Of a DNA stretch of 38,614 nucleotides, positions 6,840 to 30,631 are shown one piece after another. Source of the stretch: Bacteroidota bacterium (GTDB lineage: Bacteria; Bacteroidota; Bacteroidia; Flavobacteriales; JADGDT01). The position numbers and the translations under genes are program-made. The notes beneath the pieces were generated by a model, which did not search any database, was not told where the DNA came from, and worked only from the letters and a program-made list of their open reading frames with translations. Location: positions 1 through 38,614 of the forward strand of contig JBDLJM010000012.1 of assembly GCA_039714315.1 (NCBI GenBank), given 5' to 3'. Numbering within the stretch: the first letter of the stretch is position 1; each line of letters begins with the position of its first letter.

Positions 6840-9380
6840 TCAATCCAAAATCTCTTTATCCGGCAATTTCAGTCCCTCAATAAGATTTCTATTTTGAACC
6901 TTTAAAGCAATGAAAGTGGCATATGCACTCAACAGATTTTTTTCATAATCTTTCCACTTTCTCCTTTTGTTTTCTACTATAAAATATATAGCACCCCAAT
7001 TATCCTGTGATGTTTTTAGTGGGAAGCCCAAAAGAGACATTATTTTATGGTCTCTCAAATATTTTTTATGCTCCGGATTTAAATCCAGTTCTGCCAGGTC
7101 CCAATAGTACTTTCGCCATAAAGTATTTTTTTCTACAATATCTCTAACTTCAAAAGTTTTAAAGAAACAATCGTCTGTTCCCTGATAAATTCCGGAACTG
7201 CTAATCCAGCGGTAACTGTCATTATAATTTACCACCCCATCTTCGACTGAAAACTTGGATACAACTACTCTGGATACACCAAGAGCACTTCCAACAACAC
7301 CTAATGACTTTATAAAATCATAATCTTTTTCTAGTTCCAGCTGCGAAACATTAATTGATGATAAGAGCAATTCGAATCCTTTATTTTCTAACTCTAAGAC
7401 CTTCAAATCCGATATATCCTGTAAAGCTCCTTCTACACTCTCCACATCATCTCCTTCAACATTTACTTTCGAAGCAGAAAGTTTCAGCCATTTAATTTCA
7501 CCTGAATTTGTGATCATTCTAAATTCAATAAAATCAGAATAAGACTTATTGCTTCTAATATTATTTATGTAGTTCATCAACTCGCCAACATCATGACTTA
7601 ATACATAGTCAAACAAAAGGAACGCATTTTCGTAAATATCTATTTTTTCATTTTTATCATCAACTCCAATAATATCTAATAAATAATCTACACTGGAATT
7701 GTTAAGTTTTTTAGTCTTAAAATTAACTTTCCAGTCAAATATTTTTCCCTCCTGATAAAATGTACTTAGAGTGGAGTTAAAGTTTATATTATCTTCCTGT
7801 CGTTTTTTCTGAATAAGCCTTACAGCCAAATTATCAGCAACGTCCATTATTATTTTAAGATGTTCATCCTTGAAAAAATCAGCTCTGACATTTTCAGAAT
7901 CAATTATTCCCAATAGCTCTCCTTCAAATATTATCGGAACTGTTATCTCTGATAATGAAGGCTTATTCAGATAGTAGTAATCCGCATCCTTTGAATTATT
8001 AGCTACAACTTCGGATACCTGTGTTTTAACAACCCTGCCAATTACACCTGCTTTAGGTGAAAGAGTTTTGGGATAACTGGCCCTATTACTGCCTCTACGC
8101 GGTTCAATATAACCTCCACCATACTCAAGAATGCCGGTATTGTGATTATACAAATAAATAACTGTATCCTGAAGATTGAGCCTTTCAACTAATGATTTCG
8201 TCAGATCATTCAAAATAAGCGGAATAGTTGGTTGTCTTAACAGACTCAGAGAAAAATACTCGTTTAACAGCTTCCTCTTATCGTGTATAAGTTGCTCATC
8301 CTTAATATTTTTCTTTTCGGAAATATCTCTTAAATACCCTGTTCCCGTTAAAACATTATTTTCCGAATAAGACTCATTCCAATCAATTGTCACCCACCTT
8401 GACTTTTGCTGACTATCATTAATCCTAAATTCATTTTTCACACGACGTTCCGGTTCCGTCAAAGACAGAAAAAAGTAATGCAATCGAGCTCTTTCCATAC
8501 GGTCGAAACGACTAAACAACAGGTTTGAATCGTTCAAAATATGTTCTGCCGAAAGACCTAAAATATCCTTAATACCCTCCGAAACAAAAGTAAACTTCAG
8601 CTCATCATTATCTACTTCAAATTCAAATAATACTCCCGGAACAACTTCTGTTAGGTTTTTTAATCGTTTCTTTTCCTGTTTGAAAATCGCTTCATTTCTG
8701 CGAATGTGCGAAATATCTTCGAAAGATATATAAAAGTATTTCAGACCGTCATCAATTGCTGAACACTCTAACTTTAACGAATACATATCACCATCGAAAT
8801 TAAGGTCTGCAACTTTTGAAGATAACTCTCCTACTCTTGCTATTTCTACAAGATTTTCAATTTCTTCGGTAAAATTTTCCGGTAATAAATCATCTTCATT
8901 CCTATATAACTGCATAAAATCACTCCCTCTTTTGTTTAATGCAATTATTTTATTCTCATCAATTCCATATACCAATGAAGGGATTGCTTTATGAACAAAT
9001 AAATTTTTTGAATTAATAAATCTATTTACAAATGAGTCATCTGATTCTCTTCTAAACTCAAATTTAATGAGTAAAAGGTTTTGTTTTTCGAAGTTAAGTT
9101 TCGAATAGCTTTCTAAATAAATTAATGTATTCTCATCTACATGAACTTCTGAGGGAAGATTATTAACATCAATCTTACCATCATTATACATTGACAGAAA
9201 CTCGCGATGTAACTTTGGGGTATGCATAAACATCTCGAGCAGATTACTTTCGTAAGGGAGCTTATCAGAAATGATTTTTTTTAAAACGTCAGATATTACA
9301 ACTATATGACCACTATATTCAACCAGTACCAAAGGAGACTTGGAATATCTGATTAGGTCTAATAATGCAGCTTCAGCCAT
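6840..9380 (-). CDS. Multi-PAS/GAF sensory protein without output domain
   Basis: Soluble 846-residue protein, apparently built only from sensory modules. An N-terminal PAS-like segment (about 5-110) is followed by a second (about 125-230, ending YFYISFEDISHIRRNE). A third PAS with PAC ending GYLRDISEKK spans about 240-360. A GAF domain (about 375-530) contains SPKAGVIGRVVKT and ITVPIIFEGELLGIIDSEN. A further PAS ends GALQDISDLK (about 545-665), and a last GAF (about 680-835) contains GFPLKTSQDNWGAIYFIVENKRRKW. No transmembrane segment, HisKA/HATPase, GGDEF, EAL or DNA-binding region is seen after the last GAF, so the protein stops where a kinase would begin. No frame-shifted kinase remnant is found in the 158 bases downstream. 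It may act through a partner protein. Domain boundaries are estimates by eye. Confidence 0.8.
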   Translation of the reverse strand: MAEAALLDLIRYSKSPLVLVEYSGHIVVISDVLKKIISDKLPYESNLLEMFMHTPKLHREFLSMYNDGKIDVNNLPSEVHVDENTLIYLESYSKLNFEKQNLLLIKFEFRRESDDSFVNRFINSKNLFVHKAIPSLVYGIDENKIIALNKRGSDFMQLYRNEDDLLPENFTEEIENLVEIARVGELSSKVADLNFDGDMYSLKLECSAIDDGLKYFYISFEDISHIRRNEAIFKQEKKRLKNLTEVVPGVLFEFEVDNDELKFTFVSEGIKDILGLSAEHILNDSNLLFSRFDRMERARLHYFFLSLTEPERRVKNEFRINDSQQKSRWVTIDWNESYSENNVLTGTGYLRDISEKKNIKDEQLIHDKRKLLNEYFSLSLLRQPTIPLILNDLTKSLVERLNLQDTVIYLYNHNTGILEYGGGYIEPRRGSNRASYPKTLSPKAGVIGRVVKTQVSEVVANNSKDADYYYLNKPSLSEITVPIIFEGELLGIIDSENVRADFFKDEHLKIIMDVADNLAVRLIQKKRQEDNINFNSTLSTFYQEGKIFDWKVNFKTKKLNNSSVDYLLDIIGVDDKNEKIDIYENAFLLFDYVLSHDVGELMNYINNIRSNKSYSDFIEFRMITNSGEIKWLKLSASKVNVEGDDVESVEGALQDISDLKVLELENKGFELLLSSINVSQLELEKDYDFIKSLGVVGSALGVSRVVVSKFSVEDGVVNYNDSYRWISSSGIYQGTDDCFFKTFEVRDIVEKNTLWRKYYWDLAELDLNPEHKKYLRDHKIMSLLGFPLKTSQDNWGAIYFIVENKRRKWKDYEKNLLSAYATFIALKVQNRNLIEGLKLPDKEILD

Positions 9381-9775
9381 ATAAACTGTTATATTGAATT
9401 TTGGGTTAATAAACTGAACTCAAAAACAAATATCTTAAAAATAACTACTGTTTAAATTTATAATATTCATTTAGAGGTTCAACCGGTCTTAGATTAGCTA
9501 ATTTAACATTTTTCAACAAATAACAACACTTTTACACCTAATATAAAGGACTTTACATTTACCTAACATAGCATATATGAGGATACTGGTATTATTGAAA
9601 AACAATCTCTACAGGTAATAAGCCATAAATTCACATGTCAAAAACTGTCAGATATGTTTAAAAATCAATATCCATAAATGTAAATTATGACAATATGACA
9701 CCTGCAGCTATTTGGCATAAACTTTGAATTTTGCTGTTCAGATAAAATTTGACAAATAATTTAAATTACAATAAA
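9381..9775. other. 395-base intergenic region between the PAS/GAF gene and htpG
   Basis: This divergent region must hold promoters for both genes. No clean TAnnTTTG is found; a near match TAAAATTTG (9743-9751), with TTTG at 9723-9726, is the best htpG candidate. No CIRCE element was recognised. TGTCA occurs twice near 9637-9652 and TGACA twice near 9688-9702; their meaning is unclear. No RNA gene or reading frame of note is seen. Confidence 0.5.
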
Positions 9776-11659
9776 ATGGCAAAAGGAAAGATTAATGTTA
9801 CGGCAGATAATATTTTCCCGGTTATTAAGAAGTTTTTATACTCAGACCACGAAATATTTTTAAGAGAGTTAGTATCAAATGCAGTAGATGCCACCGAAAA
9901 GCTTAAACACCTTAGCTCTATGGGTGAATTTAAAGGTGAAGTTGGCGATACAAAAATTGATATTTCTATTGATAAAGATGCCAGAACACTTACTATAAAA
10001 GATCGTGGTATTGGTATGACTTCAGAAGAAGTTGAAAAATATATTACTGATATTGCCTTCTCGGGAGCAGAAGAATTCATGGAAAAATACAAAGATCAAA
10101 TGGACGGTAAAGATCTTATCGGACACTTTGGTTTAGGTTTCTATTCTGCATTTATGGTTGCTGACAAGGTTGAAATTTTCACTAAATCTTTCAAAGAAGG
10201 CAGTGAGGCTGTACGTTGGGAATGCGACGGGTCTCCGGAATATATTTTAGAGTCAACAGATAAGAAAGAAGACAGAGGTACAGAAATTGTATTACATATC
10301 GACAAAGATTCTGATGAATTTATTGAAAACCACAGAATTAGCGAACTGCTTAACAAGTATTCTAAATTTGTTCCGGTTGAGATAAAATTCGGAGAAAAAG
10401 ATGAAACTGTTAAGGAAGGTGAAGGCGATGATGCCAAGGAAACTACTGTTAAAGTAGACAATATCATCAACAACACTAACCCGGCATGGACAAAGGCCCC
10501 GGCTGATTTAAGTGACGAGGATTACAACAACTTCTATCGCGAATTGTACCCTTCTAATTTTGAAGATCCATTGTTTCACATTCACCTAAACGTTGATTAT
10601 CCTTTCAATCTTACCGGAATCCTATATTTCCCTAAGATTTCGAAAACTATGGATATGCAGAAGGATAAAATCCAACTGTATCAAAATCAGGTTTTCATTA
10701 CCGATAATGTTGAGAACATAGTTCCTGATTTCTTAAACATGCTTAAGGGTGTTATAGATTCTCCGGATATTCCTTTAAATGTTTCCCGTTCTTATTTACA
10801 GGCCGACGCTGCCGTAAAAAGAATTTCAGGACACATCACCAAGAAGGTTGCTGATAAGTTAAATTCAATGTACAAAAATGACAGAGAGGATTTCCAAAAG
10901 AAATGGGATGATATCAAAATCATTATCGAATACGGAATGCTTTCTGAGCAAAAATTCTATGACAGAGCTAAAAAATTCGCTCTTTATCCAACTATTGACG
11001 GTGAGTTTTTCACTTTTGAAGAGCTTACAGAAAAGGTAAAAGACAATCAGACTGATAAAGACGGAAATACTGTTATCCTTTACGCAGGAAATAAAGAAGC
11101 ACAACACGCATATATCGAGAGAGCAAAAGAAAAAGGCTACGAAGTATTATTACTTGATTCTCCAATCGTTTCTCACCTTATTCAGAAAATTGAAGGCGAA
11201 AACGAAAAAATTAAGTTTGCCCGTGTTGATGCTGATTCAATCGAAAAGCTTATCGATAAAAATGAAACAGTAATTTCTAAATTATCGAAAGAGGAAGAAG
11301 AAACTCTTAAGCCTGTTATCGAAGGAGCTATCAGCGATTCAAAATATACAATTCAGATGGAGGCTTTAGATTCTAAAGAACTTCCGTTTCTGGTTACTGT
11401 ACCCGAATTTATTCGCCGAATGAACGAACAGGCTCAAACCGGCGGCGGAATGATGGGAATGGGTCAGATGCCTGAAATGTATAATTTAGTAGTTAACACT
11501 AACAATGAATTGGTTTCTGAAATTCTTAGCGAAGAAGATGAAGAAAGAAAAGGACGCCTGGTTCGTCAGGGATTCGACCTTGCGAAACTTCAGCAAAATC
11601 TTCTTCACGGAGAAGAATTGACTAAATTCATTAAACGAAGTGTTGATTTGATTAAATAA
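9776..11659 (+). CDS. htpG: Molecular chaperone HtpG (bacterial Hsp90)
   Basis: ATP-dependent cytosolic chaperone. The 627-residue protein has the GHKL nucleotide-binding blocks FLRELVSNAVDATEKL, IKDRGIGMT and LIGHFGLGFYSAFMVADKVEI, then the middle domain (FPKISKTMDMQKDKIQLYQNQVFITDN, PLNVSRSYLQ) and a C-terminal dimerisation domain. A Gly/Met-rich stretch (TGGGMMGMGQMPEMYN) sits shortly before the end. The ATG at 9776 gives the usual start MAKGKINV; an in-frame TTG at 9749 would add nine unconserved residues and was not used. A strong terminator follows. Heat-shock control is expected for the family, but no specific operator was seen. Confidence 0.96.
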   Translation: MAKGKINVTADNIFPVIKKFLYSDHEIFLRELVSNAVDATEKLKHLSSMGEFKGEVGDTKIDISIDKDARTLTIKDRGIGMTSEEVEKYITDIAFSGAEEFMEKYKDQMDGKDLIGHFGLGFYSAFMVADKVEIFTKSFKEGSEAVRWECDGSPEYILESTDKKEDRGTEIVLHIDKDSDEFIENHRISELLNKYSKFVPVEIKFGEKDETVKEGEGDDAKETTVKVDNIINNTNPAWTKAPADLSDEDYNNFYRELYPSNFEDPLFHIHLNVDYPFNLTGILYFPKISKTMDMQKDKIQLYQNQVFITDNVENIVPDFLNMLKGVIDSPDIPLNVSRSYLQADAAVKRISGHITKKVADKLNSMYKNDREDFQKKWDDIKIIIEYGMLSEQKFYDRAKKFALYPTIDGEFFTFEELTEKVKDNQTDKDGNTVILYAGNKEAQHAYIERAKEKGYEVLLLDSPIVSHLIQKIEGENEKIKFARVDADSIEKLIDKNETVISKLSKEEEETLKPVIEGAISDSKYTIQMEALDSKELPFLVTVPEFIRRMNEQAQTGGGMMGMGQMPEMYNLVVNTNNELVSEILSEEDEERKGRLVRQGFDLAKLQQNLLHGEELTKFIKRSVDLIK

Positions 11660-22958: not shown

Positions 22959-24482
22959 TTAAAGATCATTCTCTTCTTTTTTTATCCCAAATTCTTCCAA
23001 CACATTATCTTCATCAAGTAAAGGAGCTTTCCACGAATTAACACCTAAATCCAGTTTCCCAAATTTAATTGGAAAGTTTAATAATGTTTCTTCATCTGTA
23101 TCTTTAAAAATCGCTCCCCTTTCCAGAAAGTGATTGTTATTAAGAACATCCTCCAAAGTAGAAACCGGTGTTAAACACATATCGTATTTTTTTGAAATTT
23201 CGGTCCACTCCGCTTTTGTTTTTCTCAGGAAAAGTTCAATCACCTGTGTTTTCAACCCATGTTTATGAGCTTCTTCAGGTAAAAGGTAAGCTTTCCATTT
23301 TTTCTTACCTACTGCATCACAAAATGTATTCCAGAATTTAGGCTCCAGGGCCCCCAAAGCCATCCAGCCGCCATCTTTAGTCTTATATACATCATAATTA
23401 GCAAGACCTCCCGAGAGAGGTGCTTTTTTATACAATCCAATATCATTTTCCCTGCTCTTTCTTGTAAAACTCATTGTCGTAAAGGGCAACAAAGCGTCTG
23501 TCATAGACAGATCTATATGCAATCCTTCTCCTGTATTCTTTACAGAATATAAAGCAGTTGTAACAGCTGTCAGCAACATATAGGATCCTCCGGCTATATC
23601 GGCCAGTTGAAAATCAGGAACAACCGGTTTACCGTCAGCATCCCTGTTTAAATCCAATACTCCGGAAGTAGCCATATAATTAATATCGTGCCCTGCTCTT
23701 GAGTATAACTCTCCAAATTGTCCATAACCACTAAGGGAAATCATTATTAATTTGGGGTTGATTTTTTTTAGACTATCGTAATCCAGATTTAGAGCTTTCA
23801 TAACACCTGGCCTAAACTGCTCTATCAATACATCAGATTTCTCTACCAGACTCAACAGTATGTTCTTATCCTCTTCTGAATATAAATCAAGAGCTACGCT
23901 CCTCTTTGATCTGTTTAACGCTAAATAATAAAGTGATTCTCCATTTTCTACAGGGGGATAAGAGCGAATAGGATCTCCATTTTCGGGATCTTCTATTTTT
24001 ATAACTTCTGCTCCCATCTGTCCCAGCATTTGTGTAGCCATAGGCCCGGGCAACAATCTGCTCAGGTCTAAGATCCTGACTCCGGTCAAAGGTCCTACCT
24101 TTTCGGGGCGTGAAATCTTCTTTTCTGCTTTTTTGAGAATATGTGATCCTTCCTGTTTTTTATATTTCCTGAAACATTTGGTAAACCTCAGCATTTCATT
24201 TATATCCGAAACTTTTACTTTGCCGGTTAGCAAGGCCAACTGTGGGTTTATTTCTCCTGTTTCAAGCTTTATATATGTTGATACATTTGACTTTACAATA
24301 CAATTTGCATCACCGGAAATTCCTTCATTTACTTCTACTTTAGAATCGTGAATTTTTACGCTGAATTTATGTGTATCTTTTATGTCCTTCAGTACAAAAT
24401 GAACAATAATATTCAGATTTCCTGCTTTTTCAGGGCGGAATCGTATAGGAAGACTTTGAAATAACTGATTAATTTTTCGCAT
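22959..24482 (-). CDS. SCP2-like domain fused to alpha-methylacyl-CoA racemase (CaiB/BaiF family)
   Basis: 507-residue fusion. Residues about 1-110 form an SCP2-like lipid-binding domain (GDANCIVKSN, LETGEINPQLALLTGKVKVSDINEMLRF). A linker rich in Lys/Glu leads to a CaiB/BaiF domain (about 130-507) with GVRILDLSRLLPGPMATQMLGQMGAEVIKIE. The catalytic pair is His265 (GHDINY) and Asp295 (LADIAGGS); their 30-residue spacing equals that of the mycobacterial alpha-methylacyl-CoA racemase pair, so racemase is favoured over CoA transferase. The likely reaction is interconversion of (2R)- and (2S)-methylacyl-CoA esters before beta-oxidation. It starts five bases after the acyl-CoA dehydrogenase stop, and its SCP2-like domain is a homologue of that enzyme's C-terminal domain. 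Confidence 0.88.
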   Translation of the reverse strand: MRKINQLFQSLPIRFRPEKAGNLNIIVHFVLKDIKDTHKFSVKIHDSKVEVNEGISGDANCIVKSNVSTYIKLETGEINPQLALLTGKVKVSDINEMLRFTKCFRKYKKQEGSHILKKAEKKISRPEKVGPLTGVRILDLSRLLPGPMATQMLGQMGAEVIKIEDPENGDPIRSYPPVENGESLYYLALNRSKRSVALDLYSEEDKNILLSLVEKSDVLIEQFRPGVMKALNLDYDSLKKINPKLIMISLSGYGQFGELYSRAGHDINYMATSGVLDLNRDADGKPVVPDFQLADIAGGSYMLLTAVTTALYSVKNTGEGLHIDLSMTDALLPFTTMSFTRKSRENDIGLYKKAPLSGGLANYDVYKTKDGGWMALGALEPKFWNTFCDAVGKKKWKAYLLPEEAHKHGLKTQVIELFLRKTKAEWTEISKKYDMCLTPVSTLEDVLNNNHFLERGAIFKDTDEETLLNFPIKFGKLDLGVNSWKAPLLDEDNVLEEFGIKKEENDL

Positions 24483-24487
24483 TATTT

Positions 24488-26032
24488 TTAAAACAATCTC
24501 TTAAACATCTTTGTAAACTTCATCATCTCCGCAAGGTTAGAAATCTTTATTTTCCCTGTCATTACGGCCATTTCAGGATTACGTTTCCCCAATTCAAGTT
24601 CCTCGTAAATCTTGTCTTTGGCTTTTACCTTACAGTCGGCTTCGCCTTCTAACCCATCCTTAACCCGGCAAATTCCATCCTTCAATGATACGGTAAATTC
24701 ACCTCCATTATCTCCCGAAATATCAAAGTGAAAAACTGTTGAATATCCATGAGCTTTTTCTTTTCTAACCCTGTTTGCCAAACTCCTGATAATATCGATT
24801 GCCTTTTCGGGTTTTTCACTAAACTCTTCTTCTATTTCGGCTTTTACTTCGTGTTTTGCCTCTCCCTTATAGGTAGACCTATACATCGTATCGTCTACAA
24901 CTATTTTGGCCAGAATTTCGGCCATTATTTCCGTTGTGCCTCCTACTATAGTACTCACCCGTGCATCGCGATATATTCTGCTTATCTCATAATCGTCCAT
25001 ATAACCAAAACCACCAAACATCTGTAAACATTCGTCTGCTACCTTCTTGGCCAGTTCCGAAGTTTTCATCTTTGCGATAGTACATTCTTTTACCAGATAT
25101 TCCTTTCTGTCGAATGCCTGTGCTATCTGATAGATATATGTCTTTGCCATTTCCACATCGGCATACAAATCTGTAATTCTGTGGCGTAAGACCTGAAATT
25201 TGTTGATCGGACGGCCAAACACATTACGCTCCTTCATATACTGTAATGTAATATCGATAGTATACTCACATGCCGCCACATTACCTATAGAGGCCATAAG
25301 CCTTTCGAGCTGAAAACTTTCCATTACATAAAAAAAGCCATGACCTTCATCGCCTATTAAATTCTCTTTAGGAACTTTAACATCTTCAAAGAAAATTTCG
25401 GCAGTAGCCGAACTGTGGTAACCAATCTTTTCCAATTTTGTTCTGCTAACTCCATCTGCATCCAAATCGACAACTATCAGAGATATTCCATTTATCCCAG
25501 CATTGGGATCGGTTTTCACAGCCAGGGTAATAAAATCGCCCTGATAACCATTTGTTATAAATATTTTGGACCCGTTTACCAGATAATGATCGCCCATATC
25601 ACTTGCAGAAGTACGAATACTCATAACATCAGATCCTGCACCCGGTTCGGTTATCCCCAATGCTCCCAGTTTATCCCCTGAAATTGCACCAGGAATATAC
25701 TTTTGTTTCAACAGCTCGCTTCCTGCTTCATAAAGATGAGCAAAAGCCATATAGCTCTGCACACCCGCTGAAGCTGCAAAACCCGCAGAGCCAACTTTAG
25801 CTGTTTCCTCCAGATATATCAACGAATACAGAAAATCGAGTTCCATACCCCCATACTTTTCAGGATACATCAAACCGAGATATCCCATATCTCCCATTTT
25901 CTTCCATATAGATTTAGGAATCGTTTTCTCCTTCTCCCAGGAGTTGATATTGGGAACTACTTCCTTCTGCAAAAACTCACGCAAACTCTCGCGGAACAGA
26001 TTGTGCTCTTCTGTGAAAATATGATTGTTCAT
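24488..26032 (-). CDS. Acyl-CoA dehydrogenase with C-terminal SCP2-like domain
   Basis: FAD enzyme that introduces the 2,3 double bond in acyl-CoA. The 514 residues comprise a standard dehydrogenase (about 1-385) with LGITEPGAGSD (124-134), FITNGYQGD (158-166), RNVFGRP and FGGFGYMDDYEI. The region 362-371 reads IVGGTTEIMA, so the Glu of the YEGT motif is missing. Glu256 in AACEYTI aligns instead with the helix-G base of long-chain and isovaleryl-CoA dehydrogenases. A tail (about 408-514) has the SCP2-like pattern GEADCKVK, LELGKRNPEMAVMTGKIKISNLAEMMKFTK. The ordinary family length is about 380-400, so the tail is an added domain. It heads a tight pair with the racemase and lies 387 bases after fadB on the same strand. 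Confidence 0.92.
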   Translation of the reverse strand: MNNHIFTEEHNLFRESLREFLQKEVVPNINSWEKEKTIPKSIWKKMGDMGYLGLMYPEKYGGMELDFLYSLIYLEETAKVGSAGFAASAGVQSYMAFAHLYEAGSELLKQKYIPGAISGDKLGALGITEPGAGSDVMSIRTSASDMGDHYLVNGSKIFITNGYQGDFITLAVKTDPNAGINGISLIVVDLDADGVSRTKLEKIGYHSSATAEIFFEDVKVPKENLIGDEGHGFFYVMESFQLERLMASIGNVAACEYTIDITLQYMKERNVFGRPINKFQVLRHRITDLYADVEMAKTYIYQIAQAFDRKEYLVKECTIAKMKTSELAKKVADECLQMFGGFGYMDDYEISRIYRDARVSTIVGGTTEIMAEILAKIVVDDTMYRSTYKGEAKHEVKAEIEEEFSEKPEKAIDIIRSLANRVRKEKAHGYSTVFHFDISGDNGGEFTVSLKDGICRVKDGLEGEADCKVKAKDKIYEELELGKRNPEMAVMTGKIKISNLAEMMKFTKMFKRLF

Positions 26033-26419
26033 TGTAGGTTAGTTTTTATTCTAAATAGAACATAATTTTACAGTATTAAATTACTTCATTTGTCCATTAT
26101 TTCAAAATAAAAGGAAAACATATATAATCCTGTGCTTAATCCTTCTTTTATTTTAAACATGATTATTAACTGTTCCATCCTGAAGAATTATAATTCATAA
26201 TGATTACCTATTCGAAGACCGGAAACTGTTTGTGCCAGGGATTATTCGCAAGTAATTATATTTTGTACTCATGATAACTTCGTAATTGAAGTGGCAGCCT
26301 TTTTTATTGAAAAAACAGTAAAACTTTTGCTTTGAGAGCGACCAAAGGAAGCTCCCCAAAGCAAATTTAGCTGAACATTTTTTCTATAAAAAGCTATAAC
26401 TGATATCCCGTATGGCATC
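26033..26419. other. 387-base gap between fadB-like and acyl-CoA dehydrogenase genes
   Basis: Unusually long for genes of one locus. It holds the hairpin element at 26326-26365, a small ACTTC/GAAGT hairpin (26277-26292) ahead of a T-run, and AT-rich sequence. No convincing TAnnTTTG promoter or reading frame is seen. The hairpins may end the fadB message, in which case the dehydrogenase-racemase pair must have its own promoter. Confidence 0.5.
26326..26365. repeat. REP-like palindromic hairpin
   Basis: TTTGCTTTG (26326-26334) pairs perfectly with 26357-26365. Inside, GAGC (26336-26339) pairs with GCTC (26351-26354), leaving an 11-nt loop GACCAAAGGAA. The wording GAGCGACCAAAGGAAGC resembles short palindromic repeats scattered in many bacterial genomes, so this may be a decayed copy. 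It could also act as a terminator. Confidence 0.45.
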
Positions 26420-28537
26420 CTAATAAAAATTAGAATTATTGTTTTTCATATCCTCCAACATTTGTGGGCTCTTAAACCTCTTACCAAAACCTTTTTCCAA
26501 TTCCCCAATCATCTTTACAAACTCCGACAGCCCTTTTCCGTCAATATAGCGGAATGGTCCCCCGAGAAATGGAGGGAAACCTAAACCGAAAATCGCTCCT
26601 ATATCTCCGTCGCGAGGACTTTCTATTATTCTTTCATCCAAACAGTAAACCGCCTCCAGAACCATTGTTGAAGCCATTCTTTGCTGAATCAACTCATCAC
26701 TTACCGAAGTATTATCAAAAGTGAAAAATTCATTCAAACCTTCATCAAGCTTACCTTTAATTTTTTTGCCTTTTTCGTATTTCAGGAAGCCTTTATTGTT
26801 TTTTCGTCCCTTGTATCCTTTTTCGAACATCTTCAACAGGACTCCGCTGATTTCTACCTCACGTTTATCGAACATCTCCTTTAATCCTCCTTTCATAATG
26901 TGGGCACCAACATCAATTCCAACCTCATCAATCAGTGTAATCGGTCCAACAGGGTATCCGAAATCTTTCATTGCTTTATCTATCTGCAGAGGCGGAACTC
27001 CTTCTTCCATTAAAAGTAAGGCTTCGTTGATAAAGGGAGCTAAAATCCGGGTTGTATAAAAACCGGGGCCATCCTTAACCACAATACAGGTTTTCCCCTG
27101 TTTTATACCTACATCCAAAGCTGTTGCTGTTACCCAATCGGCTGTTTTATCTGTTTTAATAATTTCGAGAAGCGGCATTTTAGGTACGGGAGAAAAATAG
27201 TGCATACCTATCACGTTTTCAGGATTTTTTGATCCTTTGGCAACATCGGCAATTGGCAATGCTGATGTATTTGTAGCTACAATAGTTTCCTCCGAAATAT
27301 TTTCCTCCAGTTCCTGAATAACCTTGTGTTTAATATTTAAATCTTCAAATACAGCCTCTATTACCAAATCTGTTGAATTAAATCCTTCGTAATTCTTTGT
27401 AAAGGCAATTTTATTCATTTTTGTTTCTGCATCTACAGACTTCAAAATTCTTCGTTTCACCTTTTTATTAAAGCTCTTCCACAGATTCTTATGTGCTTTT
27501 TCGAGTGATTCGTCAGAAATATCCTTTAGCACTATATCATAGCCTTTATTAACAGAAACCTCAGCTATCCCCTCGCCCATCAGTCCGGCACCAAGTACAG
27601 ATATATTATCTACCTTTTTTACCTTATCCTGAAGCGGATTTTTTTTCAATTCCGTCATTCCGAGGAAAATCTGAATCAATTCGGCTGATTCGGGGCTGAC
27701 CATTAAATCTGAAAATAAATTAACTTCATTTTCGATTGCTATATCCCGTTTGTTGGCCAGGCCGAACTTTACACTTTCAATTATTTTAAGAGGAGCCGGA
27801 TAATTACCACGTGTTTGTCGCATCACAGCTTTCCTGGCCTCCTTGTATATAACATTTTTAGTTATCGGATTACTTTCAAGTAATTTCTGAGCTGCTGTTC
27901 TTTTATCTTTTCTCTTAAACTTTTTACTGGCAATACTCTCTACCAGTTGTTTTGCTGAATCCAATAACTTCGATTTATCAACCAGCTTATCAACCAATCC
28001 TATTTTCTTTGCCTTTCCTGCAAAAATATTTTTTCCGGTAAGCATAATATCAAGAGAATTTTGCAAACCAACCAGACGCGGAAGTCTTACTGTTCCACCC
28101 ATACCAGGCAACAAACCGAGCTTTACCTCGGGCAAAGCCATTATTGTTGAAGGGTCGTCAGAAGCAACTCTACCTTTACAGGCAAGCGACAGTTCGGTTC
28201 CTCCCCCCATGCAAAAACCATGTATAGCCACTACTACAGGTTTTGATAAATCTTCAATTTTTTTCAGGATTGAATGTCCTGCTAATGCCGCTTCCTTAGC
28301 CTCCTGTTTATCATATCCGACAAAAGCCTTTATATCGGCACCGGCCATAAAACTTTTTTTCTTACTGATAATCACTCCACCAATTAGCGAAGAATCATTT
28401 TCAATCTTATCTATTATGCTTACAAAATGATCTAAAACATCAATCGTAAGAATGTTCGCTTCTGAATTTGGTTTATCAAGCCAGATAATTCCGATGTTAT
28501 TCTGTATTTCTAAGTATGGATATTCTTGTGTGATCAT
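26420..28537 (-). CDS. Enoyl-CoA hydratase/3-hydroxyacyl-CoA dehydrogenase (FadB/FadJ-type)
   Basis: Bifunctional beta-oxidation enzyme of 705 residues. The N-terminal crotonase half (about 1-200) has FMAGADIKAF and both catalytic glutamates, Glu115 in GGGTELSLAC and Glu137 in LPEVKLGLLPG. The C-terminal half begins with the NAD site LGAGLMGEGIA (315-325), followed by ATNTSALPI, the catalytic His446 (GMHYFSPVPKMPLLEII) with Glu458, and the FYTTRILAPFINEA segment. The order and length fit FadB/FadJ; which of the two cannot be decided. It is 153 bases from the thiolase gene, and a 14-bp tandem repeat fills part of that gap. With the thiolase, dehydrogenase and racemase it makes a complete beta-oxidation cycle, though acyl-CoA ligase is absent. 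Confidence 0.94.
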   Translation of the reverse strand: MITQEYPYLEIQNNIGIIWLDKPNSEANILTIDVLDHFVSIIDKIENDSSLIGGVIISKKKSFMAGADIKAFVGYDKQEAKEAALAGHSILKKIEDLSKPVVVAIHGFCMGGGTELSLACKGRVASDDPSTIMALPEVKLGLLPGMGGTVRLPRLVGLQNSLDIMLTGKNIFAGKAKKIGLVDKLVDKSKLLDSAKQLVESIASKKFKRKDKRTAAQKLLESNPITKNVIYKEARKAVMRQTRGNYPAPLKIIESVKFGLANKRDIAIENEVNLFSDLMVSPESAELIQIFLGMTELKKNPLQDKVKKVDNISVLGAGLMGEGIAEVSVNKGYDIVLKDISDESLEKAHKNLWKSFNKKVKRRILKSVDAETKMNKIAFTKNYEGFNSTDLVIEAVFEDLNIKHKVIQELEENISEETIVATNTSALPIADVAKGSKNPENVIGMHYFSPVPKMPLLEIIKTDKTADWVTATALDVGIKQGKTCIVVKDGPGFYTTRILAPFINEALLLMEEGVPPLQIDKAMKDFGYPVGPITLIDEVGIDVGAHIMKGGLKEMFDKREVEISGVLLKMFEKGYKGRKNNKGFLKYEKGKKIKGKLDEGLNEFFTFDNTSVSDELIQQRMASTMVLEAVYCLDERIIESPRDGDIGAIFGLGFPPFLGGPFRYIDGKGLSEFVKMIGELEKGFGKRFKSPQMLEDMKNNNSNFY

Positions 28538-28622
28538 TTTTTTTTAGATTTTTATTCCAAGTATTAACTTTAGAATTTAGACTTTCTGTCTATTATCTAC
28601 CGTAAAACATGGTAAGTTTTCC

Positions 28623-28692
28623 ACTTTTTTCTTTACTCTTTTTTCTTTCCTCTTTTATCTTTACTCTTTTATCTTTATTCTTTTATCTTTTC
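28623..28692. repeat. Five-copy 14-bp tandem repeat
   Basis: Consensus TCTTTTATCTTTAC on the plus strand. The units at 28651, 28665 and 28679 are nearly identical, and two diverged units start at 28623 and 28637. The last unit covers the thiolase stop codon (28691-28693). A similar pyrimidine tract ends the window (38579-38614). Confidence 0.85.
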
Positions 28693-29968
28693 AAACCCTC
28701 TTCAACAACATCGCATGTCCGTGTCCGCCCGCAGCACATGCCGCAATCATAGCCAGTTCCTTATCTTCGCGATGAAGTCTGTTTACAGCAGTTGTCAACA
28801 GTCTTGCTCCCGTGGCTCCAAAAGGATGCCCTAAAGCCAGAGAACCTCCATGGATATTTAATTTATCTAATGGTATTTCGCCTATGGCTTTTGATTTTCC
28901 CAGATTTTCTTTTGCAAACTTATCGGAATTCAGAACCTTTAAATTAGCAAGTAACTGAGCTGCAAAAGCCTCGTGATATTCAAATACTCCAATATCATTA
29001 AGCGATAATCCGGCAGCATCCAAAACTTTTGGTGTGGAATAAGCCGGACCTAATAATAGTTCATCTTTTGGGCTACGGGCTGTAAAAGTGAACTCTTCTA
29101 TATATGCTAATGGTTTCAAACCCATTGCCAGAGCCTTTTTTTCTGACATCAATAGCACTACAGCTGCTCCATCCGTTAAAATTGATGAATTAGCCGCAGT
29201 TAGAGTTCCGTTTTTCTTATCGAAAGCGGGGCGCAGTTTTGCTATCTTTTCTACAGTAGAATCAGCTCTATAAGTATTATCTTTCTTTACGATTTTATTT
29301 TTCGGAAAAGATGTTGTAGAACTTATTTCTTCATCCAAATAGCCCAATTTTTCTGCTTCACCTGCCAAATTATGACTTCTCACTGCAAAAATATCCTGTT
29401 CCTCACGTGTAATACCAAAATTAGCAGCCAGTCTGTCAGCATCAACTCCCATCGTGACTCCTGTTGTAAACTCAGTAATATCCGGGGTTACAGGTTTAAA
29501 GTCCGAAGGACGCAAGCTTGCAATAAATTTCAAACTGTCAACCGGTGATTTTATCTTTCGTGCGTTAAATAATTTTTTACGCATTTTCTTTGGAAAACCA
29601 ATTGGTATATCAGATGTGTTATCCGTTCCTCCGGCTATTACCACATCAGCCTGACCCAGCTTTATCATATTGGCAGCCTGTGCTATCGCTACATTAGCAG
29701 ATATACATGCCTGCGAAACAGTAATTGCGGGTATTGTTGCAGGTAATCCGGCAACTAACATCGATTCCCTGGCCACATTAGGTGTACGGACATTATGAAT
29801 TACCGTTCCCATAATTACCTGATCTACATCTTCACGCTTAATTCCACTTTTACTCAATAGACCACTAATTGCCGATGCCCCTAACTGGTAAGACATCATA
29901 TCCTGATAAAATGTACCTGATTTCAAGAATGGTGTTCTCGTTCCGGCTACAAATACAACTTTCTCCAT
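28691..29968 (-). CDS. Acetyl-CoA C-acyltransferase (FadI-type thiolase)
   Basis: Thiolytic cleavage of 3-ketoacyl-CoA, the last step of beta-oxidation. The 425-residue protein has the nucleophile Cys88 in VSQACISANVAIAQ, His381 in GHPFGATGARL and Cys411 in ACAAGGHGHAML. Blocks such as LRPAFDKKNGTLTAANSSILTDGAA, LGPAYSTPKVLDAAG and HEAFAAQLLANLKVL follow the FadI type more closely than the FadA type. It lies 42 bases after the TetR gene on the same strand, so it is probably transcribed from the TetR promoter. No SCP2 domain is attached here, unlike eukaryotic SCPx. Confidence 0.94.
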   Translation of the reverse strand: MEKVVFVAGTRTPFLKSGTFYQDMMSYQLGASAISGLLSKSGIKREDVDQVIMGTVIHNVRTPNVARESMLVAGLPATIPAITVSQACISANVAIAQAANMIKLGQADVVIAGGTDNTSDIPIGFPKKMRKKLFNARKIKSPVDSLKFIASLRPSDFKPVTPDITEFTTGVTMGVDADRLAANFGITREEQDIFAVRSHNLAGEAEKLGYLDEEISSTTSFPKNKIVKKDNTYRADSTVEKIAKLRPAFDKKNGTLTAANSSILTDGAAVVLLMSEKKALAMGLKPLAYIEEFTFTARSPKDELLLGPAYSTPKVLDAAGLSLNDIGVFEYHEAFAAQLLANLKVLNSDKFAKENLGKSKAIGEIPLDKLNIHGGSLALGHPFGATGARLLTTAVNRLHREDKELAMIAACAAGGHGHAMLLKRV

Positions 29969-30010: not shown

Positions 30011-30631
30011 TTATTTTGAGCAAATCCCCAATTTAATTGTACTATAAAATTCCCTGTAGAAATCACTTAACTCAATACCATAAGATTCTCTGATACTATC
30101 TCCCCGTAACCTCAACATTTGCAGTAGTCCTGTAGTCATAGCCCAAATACTTTTCGACAATACTTCAGGTTTAATATCTCCCCTGAGTGTACCATCCGAA
30201 ATTCCTTCCTCAATGGTTTTTATCATCATGGAATCTAACACATACAGGTTATTTAACGAATCTTCTCCTGTAATTTTATACTTATCCGCTTCGTAAATAG
30301 ATACAAACTCATGGTACTGTTCATACTTTAAGGCAAATTCGAAATAAGCCGATCCAAAAGCTTTGACCTTTTCATAACCATTCATCTCCGGCTTAATATT
30401 TTCCGTGATAATCTGTTCCAGTTTGCGAATAGCCTTTTTATTTATTTCTGATAGGATCTCCTCCTTTGAATCAAAATACTTATAGATAGTAGCCTTGCTA
30501 AACTCAGATAACCTGGCTACATCATCCATTGTAAAACTGTTAATTCCTTTTATAGAACATAATTTTTCAGCTGCCGCGATCATCTCTTCACGTCGAACTT
30601 CTTTTTCTCTGTCTCTTCTGCTTATACTCAT
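30011..30631 (-). CDS. TetR/AcrR family transcriptional regulator
   Basis: 206-residue DNA-binding regulator. The helix-turn-helix spans about 33-53 (FTMDDVARLSEFSKATIYKYF), typical of the family, and is followed by a variable ligand domain. It is the first gene of the beta-oxidation locus, so an acyl-CoA or fatty-acid responsive repressor, like FadR of Bacillus, is a reasonable inference. A 9-5-9 palindrome at 30639-30661, just before its start, suggests autoregulation and control of the downstream thiolase gene. Confidence 0.9.
   Translation of the reverse strand: MSISRRDREKEVRREEMIAAAEKLCSIKGINSFTMDDVARLSEFSKATIYKYFDSKEEILSEINKKAIRKLEQIITENIKPEMNGYEKVKAFGSAYFEFALKYEQYHEFVSIYEADKYKITGEDSLNNLYVLDSMMIKTIEEGISDGTLRGDIKPEVLSKSIWAMTTGLLQMLRLRGDSIRESYGIELSDFYREFYSTIKLGICSK

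Follow-up and report, generated by a model that had tools for sequence, protein, structure and literature searches.

Two SCP2-tagged enzymes, an acyl-CoA dehydrogenase and a racemase-type protein, encoded side by side in a Bacteroidota beta-oxidation cluster

Two neighbouring genes of a beta-oxidation locus in an uncultured bacterium each encode an enzyme fused to an SCP2 domain, at the C-terminus of an acyl-CoA dehydrogenase (ACAD) and at the N-terminus of a CaiB/racemase-type protein. The locus lies in the window analysed here, which is a whole stretch of 38,614 nucleotides from a Bacteroidota bacterium (contig JBDLJM010000012.1, assembly GCA_039714315.1). This fusion pair is real and conserved, apparently undescribed in the open literature that we searched, and made of known parts. 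The two proteins probably work as a functional pair within the cluster, namely an enzyme of the alpha-methylacyl-CoA racemase type and a dehydrogenase of the LCAD/IVD type, both with SCP2 tags, and the best reading is that they would share a hydrophobic substrate.

Two SCP2 domains across a short gene junction

The features of the gene pair and of its cluster are collected in Table 1. The preliminary description had placed two SCP2-like domains face to face across the junction, and the profile search agrees: with a Pfam gathering cut-off of 21.3 bits for SCP2 (PF02036), the ACAD protein matches with 45.7 bits at residues 422-511 and the CaiB protein with 31.6 bits at residues 15-92, and 5 bases separate the genes. 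Given this spacing, the two genes are very likely cotranscribed. The similarity of the ACAD end to the CaiB start, seen at first by eye, was reproduced in a direct sequence alignment, in which the two domains, across 100 residues and a single gap, are 37% identical and 65% similar (E = 4e-25). Judged by sequence, a similarity of this level is not a chance one, and the two regions recover each other in what was a sequence-sequence, not a profile-profile, comparison. Across the whole 3.4 Mb genome there is no third SCP2 match, and the ACAD and CaiB copies are the only two.

Table 1. Features of the SCP2 fusion pair and the surrounding cluster (positions in the window)
Feature	Position	Strand	Remarks
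TetR-family regulator, head of cluster	30011..30631	minus	
FadI-type 3-ketoacyl-CoA thiolase	28691..29968	minus	
FadJ-type enoyl-CoA hydratase / 3-hydroxyacyl-CoA dehydrogenase	26420..28537	minus	upstream in cluster
ACAD gene, C-terminal SCP2	24488-26032	minus	514 aa ORF
Acyl-CoA dehydrogenase core, residues 1-381	24890..26032	minus	Pfam ACAD N, M and C domains
Charged, low-confidence linker, ACAD residues 382-408	24809..24889	minus	pLDDT under 50 at 382-399
SCP2 domain, C-terminus of ACAD (A-type)	24494..24808	minus	PF02036; model topology; groups with ACAD-linked SCP2s
Intergenic gap between ACAD and CaiB genes	24483-24487	minus	5 bases, from sequence
CaiB/racemase-type gene, N-terminal SCP2	22959-24482	minus	507 aa ORF
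SCP2 domain, N-terminus of CaiB protein (C-type)	24162..24482	minus	PF02036; fold match; groups with CaiB-linked SCP2s
CaiB/BaiF (CoA-transferase III) domain, alpha-methylacyl-CoA racemase type, residues 132-507	22959..24089	minus	PF02515, 334.5 bits

An SCP2-like fold, on which the earlier proposal depended, is predicted for both domains. The CaiB-side domain, folded alone in AlphaFold2, gave a model with the SCP2 order of helices and strands (mean pLDDT 87.6), which matches the SCP2 domain of human MFE-2 (1ikt; Z 14.5, rmsd 2.7, 109 residues) and further SCP2 structures. For the ACAD-side domain, the only criterion of fold was the succession of helices and strands in the full-length AlphaFold2 model, which is the same there, with pLDDT mostly about 77-90. 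The model also suggests that the ACAD tether to SCP2 is probably flexible, and this linker measures 11-59 aa in relatives.

Active sites of the two enzymes

The best solved relatives of the CaiB domain are structures of M. tuberculosis MCR (1x74 and 8rmw), which is a 2-methylacyl-CoA racemase. His265, Asp266, Asp295 and Glu380 are invariant in its relatives, fused (32 of 32) and unfused (37 of 37) alike, and H265, D295 and E380 align with the catalytic residues H126, D156 and E241 of MCR. By these residues the CaiB protein fits an alpha-methylacyl-CoA racemase, and epimerase activity is predicted. It is like MCR and human AMACR in its fold family and its catalytic His/Asp/Glu, and this putative racemase differs from them in the additional N-terminal SCP2 domain.

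The CaiB family also includes CoA-transferases, which score slightly below MCR against the window protein (2e-48 for YfdE vs 4e-50 for MCR). It is conceivable, though we consider it unlikely, that the protein is such a transferase: the SCP2 domain would take a free hydrophobic acid, CoA would be transferred to this acid, and ACAD-SCP2 would use the product as the first substrate of beta-oxidation. The family name (CoA-transferase III) and the closeness of the YfdE score suit this reading, as does the absence of an acyl-CoA ligase from those cluster proteins that were scanned; besides, free fatty acids can bind SCP2 (1pz4). Against it, the best solved relatives are structures of the racemase MCR, and 69 of 69 homologues keep the four residues that MCR leads one to expect (His, Asp, Asp and Glu).

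For the dehydrogenase, the best solved relatives are 2pg0, human LCAD and human IVD. The two human enzymes share 33-36% identity with the window ACAD and, like it, have the catalytic Glu at the 254/261 position (E243 in the window protein, E261 in LCAD, E254 in IVD), while the position of MCAD E376 is occupied by Gly364 and holds no acid. The E243-equivalent Glu is present in 24 of 24 fused ACADs, with Gly or Ala at the second (MCAD 376) position. The active-site residues thus fit an LCAD/IVD-type acyl-CoA dehydrogenase, a type that accepts branched chains; the putative window enzyme differs from LCAD and IVD in carrying a C-terminal SCP2 domain on its linker.

Surrounding cluster and host genome

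FadJ and ACAD are separated by 387 bp. In the Pfam scan, SCP2 was absent from the FadJ and thiolase of the cluster, so the architecture of MFE-2 or SCPx does not occur here. Consensus promoter matches in the region are no commoner than in shuffled sequence. The downstream CotH-family gene bears a type IX secretion sorting domain, a sign of a Bacteroidota host. Two intergenic stretches have relatives elsewhere in the genome. Between thiolase and FadJ (28618-28687) there is a tandem repeat with a 14-base period, purine-rich on the minus strand, and similar stretches recur at some 40 other places; between FadJ and ACAD (26235-26410) there is a dispersed sequence that contains the inverted pair TTTGCTTTGG...CTCAAAGCAAA; this sequence has several similar copies and is possibly MITE-like.

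The distribution of the cluster is patchy, as indicated by the few SCP2 matches in the genus and order and by a genus-mate (G001) that keeps the flanking nitroreductase and haem-binding genes, with no cluster beside them. SCP2 has no match in either of the two sampled species of the genus. In a sample of 396 genomes from the order, only five others match it (frames of 611-672 aa), and the three of these that were scanned turned out to be WS/DGAT or alkylsulfatase proteins, neither ACAD nor CaiB. SCP2-bearing proteins of 440-670 aa from the order and phylum surveys were also considered as ACAD or CaiB fusions and rejected, since the six scanned are fusions with R2-like oxidase or WS/DGAT, or an alkylsulfatase.

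Recurrence of both fusions

SCP2-CaiB was found in 38 other sampled genomes, most of which also encode ACAD-SCP2, so that the window and its relatives hold both fusions in one genome. Proteins of this kind that cover most of the query at 42-50% identity are encoded by about 30 of the 100 nearest relatives of the MAG VK_bin-4331 (there at 42-49%) and by about 8 of 315 class members, and in the fetched loci the dehydrogenase part of ACAD-SCP2 is mostly 50-59% identical to that of the window. In three loci (L166, L167 and L168) the two fusion genes are direct neighbours on one strand, in the order of the window. Beyond these cases they are kilobases apart (2.3-3.2 kb in L169 and L170) or on other contigs; several of the relatives are fragmented MAGs. 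No plasmid match was found for the ACAD-side SCP2, and a Natrinema plasmid match that seemingly reached into SCP2 was rejected as a spurious extension over the upstream gene.

Free-standing, singly fused and doubly fused forms were all seen among the sampled Bacteroidota genomes. L171 has ACAD-SCP2 and, after it, a CaiB gene without SCP2, and in G757 (L201) ACAD and SCP2 are separate ORFs in different frames, by true fission or assembly error. L011, from a MAG of an uncultured Bacteroidetes bacterium found by a scan with the window CaiB protein, has an unfused CaiB gene with a free SCP2 gene 8 bp upstream. Its gene order of clpS, SCP2, CaiB and WG-repeat gene is shared with L168, where clpS, ACAD-SCP2, SCP2-CaiB and the WG-repeat gene follow each other (7627-11230); L011 (5599-7529) is the same locus with the ACAD body and the CaiB-side SCP2 missing and a free A-type SCP2 left. 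Free-standing SCP2 genes also occur in other phyla shortly upstream of CaiB (L014, L015, L021, L022, L054 and L071) and in other Bacteroidota just downstream of it (L091-L094). Unfused FadI-FadJ-ACAD-CaiB clusters are found in L012 (Sediminicola) and L293 (G1153), and these relatives have the same active sites, therefore SCP2 is not essential to the chemistry. Tandem ACAD-SCP2 pairs were observed near an enoyl-CoA hydratase-like gene (L193:7760-11429, L195:7779-11215 and L200:12258-15714), which recall the paired ACAD subunits known in steroid degraders.

Co-occurrence of the tagged enzymes

A dehydrogenase-side SCP2 is present in 37 of the 38 genomes with SCP2-CaiB. Where CaiB is unfused, 8 of 31 genomes have it, and where CaiB is missing, none of 19 (SCP2 matches with E above 1e-7 were excluded from these counts). 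The contrast of 37/38 vs 8/31 has a Fisher p of 1.3e-10, which is uncorrected for relatedness and overstates the evidence, because related genomes are not independent. In the one exception (G1055), a nearby ACAD gene has a weak SCP2 match of 16 bits. The frames of the second SCP2 are 515-577 aa long in 28 of the first 33 genomes, and otherwise free-standing or broken; architecture was taken from frame length where loci were unfetched, and for 11 of the first 28 the DNA itself showed an ACAD-SCP2 protein.

Such co-occurrence of homologous domains on two partner enzymes, together with tethers of 11-59 aa, would also suit SCP2 domains that serve as assembly or membrane-contact modules, uniting the enzymes by like-with-like pairing or docking, with ligand binding secondary. 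We give this reading a rather small chance, smaller than that of a CoA-transferase: the SCP2 domains known so far bind lipids and are generally monomers, and ACAD-SCP2 beside unfused CaiB, as in G785, G790, G803, G815 and G827, is harder to explain by it.

History of the SCP2 domains

In a tree of 84 SCP2 domains, one clade (98/92) holds all ACAD-linked, CaiB-linked and associated free-standing domains, and its sister group is made up of free-standing SCP2s from other Bacteroidota (L125-L128). The sisters and all clade members with the motif covered lack one residue after the GK-K-S motif, a deletion not found in other SCP2s. From this clade and this deletion, both window domains trace on sequence grounds to a single ancestral SCP2. 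Within the clade, the window A domain groups with ACAD-linked SCP2s (91/77, weak) and the C domain with the CaiB-linked SCP2s of G942 and G974 (98/86, 97/93); the CaiB-linked domains mostly form one group, and the diverged SCP2s of tandem ACADs seem to fall near it.

The preliminary description had one SCP2 gene duplicated or split between its two neighbours. The single ancestor stands; the place does not, since the window domains group with same-position domains elsewhere, which makes the duplication an ancient one that took place away from this junction. It is thus highly improbable that the domains arose here by recent duplication or splitting of one gene: the two domains do face each other over 5 bp at 37% identity and in L011 a single SCP2 gene precedes the unfused CaiB by 8 bp, but the A domain goes with ACAD-linked and the C domain with CaiB-linked SCP2s (98/86) and not with each other, most genomes with both fusions keep the genes apart, and the L011 gene is better taken for a leftover of a fused ACAD-SCP2, rejected as an unfused ancestor by its A-type SCP2 (96/93) and its synteny with the fused L168.

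The fused ACADs form one clade (99/96), which includes two unfused members, G1153 and the split G757. They are best read as losses; searched with this SCP2 profile, the G1153 genome gave no match. The Bacteroidota CaiB relatives also form one clade (100/100), in which fused and unfused proteins are mixed. Free SCP2 genes near CaiB in Bacillota and others suggest that the SCP2-CaiB partnership predates the fusion.

Relation to known SCP2 fusions

The peroxisomal enzymes MFE-2 (HSD17B4) and SCPx (thiolase-SCP2) are alike in that SCP2 sits on beta-oxidation enzymes for branched-chain or sterol-derived acyl-CoAs, and the MFE-2 SCP2 fold matches the CaiB-side model. They carry it on a hydratase/dehydrogenase or a thiolase, whereas in the window it is on an acyl-CoA dehydrogenase and a racemase-type enzyme. 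SCP2 on enzymes of beta-oxidation is a known theme, of which the window shows another variant. An SCP2-type domain is also appended to alkylsulfatases and in WS/DGAT-SCP2, R2-like oxidase-SCP2 and SDR-SCP2-MaoC proteins, several of which have hydrophobic substrates, though with enzyme partners that differ from those of the window. The arrangement had been called unfamiliar, and no description of either fusion was found in the open-access literature searched, with subscription papers mostly outside the search; it is nevertheless widespread and not unique to the window.

Several of these other fusions were seen in our survey. A Bradymonadaceae MAG (L263:2241-4406) encodes, beside a thiolase, a protein of 721 aa with SDR, SCP2 and MaoC-type hydratase in this order, a bacterial enzyme resembling MFE-2, with SCP2 as its central domain. 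In Bacteroidota, L115, L116 and L119 encode proteins of about 440-470 aa in which an N-terminal SCP2 is joined to a ribonucleotide-reductase-small-chain-like (R2-type) domain. WS/DGAT acyltransferases with a C-terminal SCP2 occur in L120 and L122, in the window's own order, and a MAG labelled Deltaproteobacteria (L264:5179-6264) has an NADPH-dependent FMN reductase with a C-terminal SCP2.

Proposed function

The preferred reading, in which a tagged racemase-type enzyme and a tagged dehydrogenase work as a pair, starts from their MCR-type and LCAD/IVD-type residues. Racemase and then dehydrogenase are consecutive steps on a 2-methyl-branched acyl-CoA: the window racemase would interconvert the (2R)- and (2S)-2-methylacyl-CoA and the dehydrogenase would oxidise the (2S) form, so that the SCP2 tags may bind the substrate for both. 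The common substrate would be one bulky hydrophobic acyl-CoA, from an isoprenoid or methyl-branched acid or a sterol side chain. By binding the acyl chain, a tethered SCP2 could enrich it locally around the active site, or alternatively keep it from membranes and micelles; SCP2 is thought to play such a substrate-binding role in eukaryotic MFE-2 and SCPx. The domain may have spread between both enzymes by ancient duplication in a Bacteroidota SCP2 subfamily, presumably followed by losses and separation of the genes.

More speculatively, and with less confidence than we have in the pair itself, this could be a widespread Bacteroidota pathway in which a dedicated SCP2 subfamily hands a 2-methyl-branched acyl-CoA from racemase to dehydrogenase, an independently assembled analogue of the peroxisomal system.

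In conclusion, the joint recurrence of the two fusions in dozens of related genomes suggests that they are a bacterial counterpart of the carrier-tagged enzymes of the peroxisome. Peroxisome biology still asks why beta-oxidation enzymes carry fused SCP2 domains. If the proposal is true, two bacterial enzymes for consecutive steps, whose tags can be removed and whose relatives come in tagged, untagged and split natural versions, would allow direct tests of what the tag does, be it substrate capture, channelling or assembly. The pair further indicates that uncultured Bacteroidota may break down branched-chain or isoprenoid acyl-CoAs, a capacity so far undescribed.
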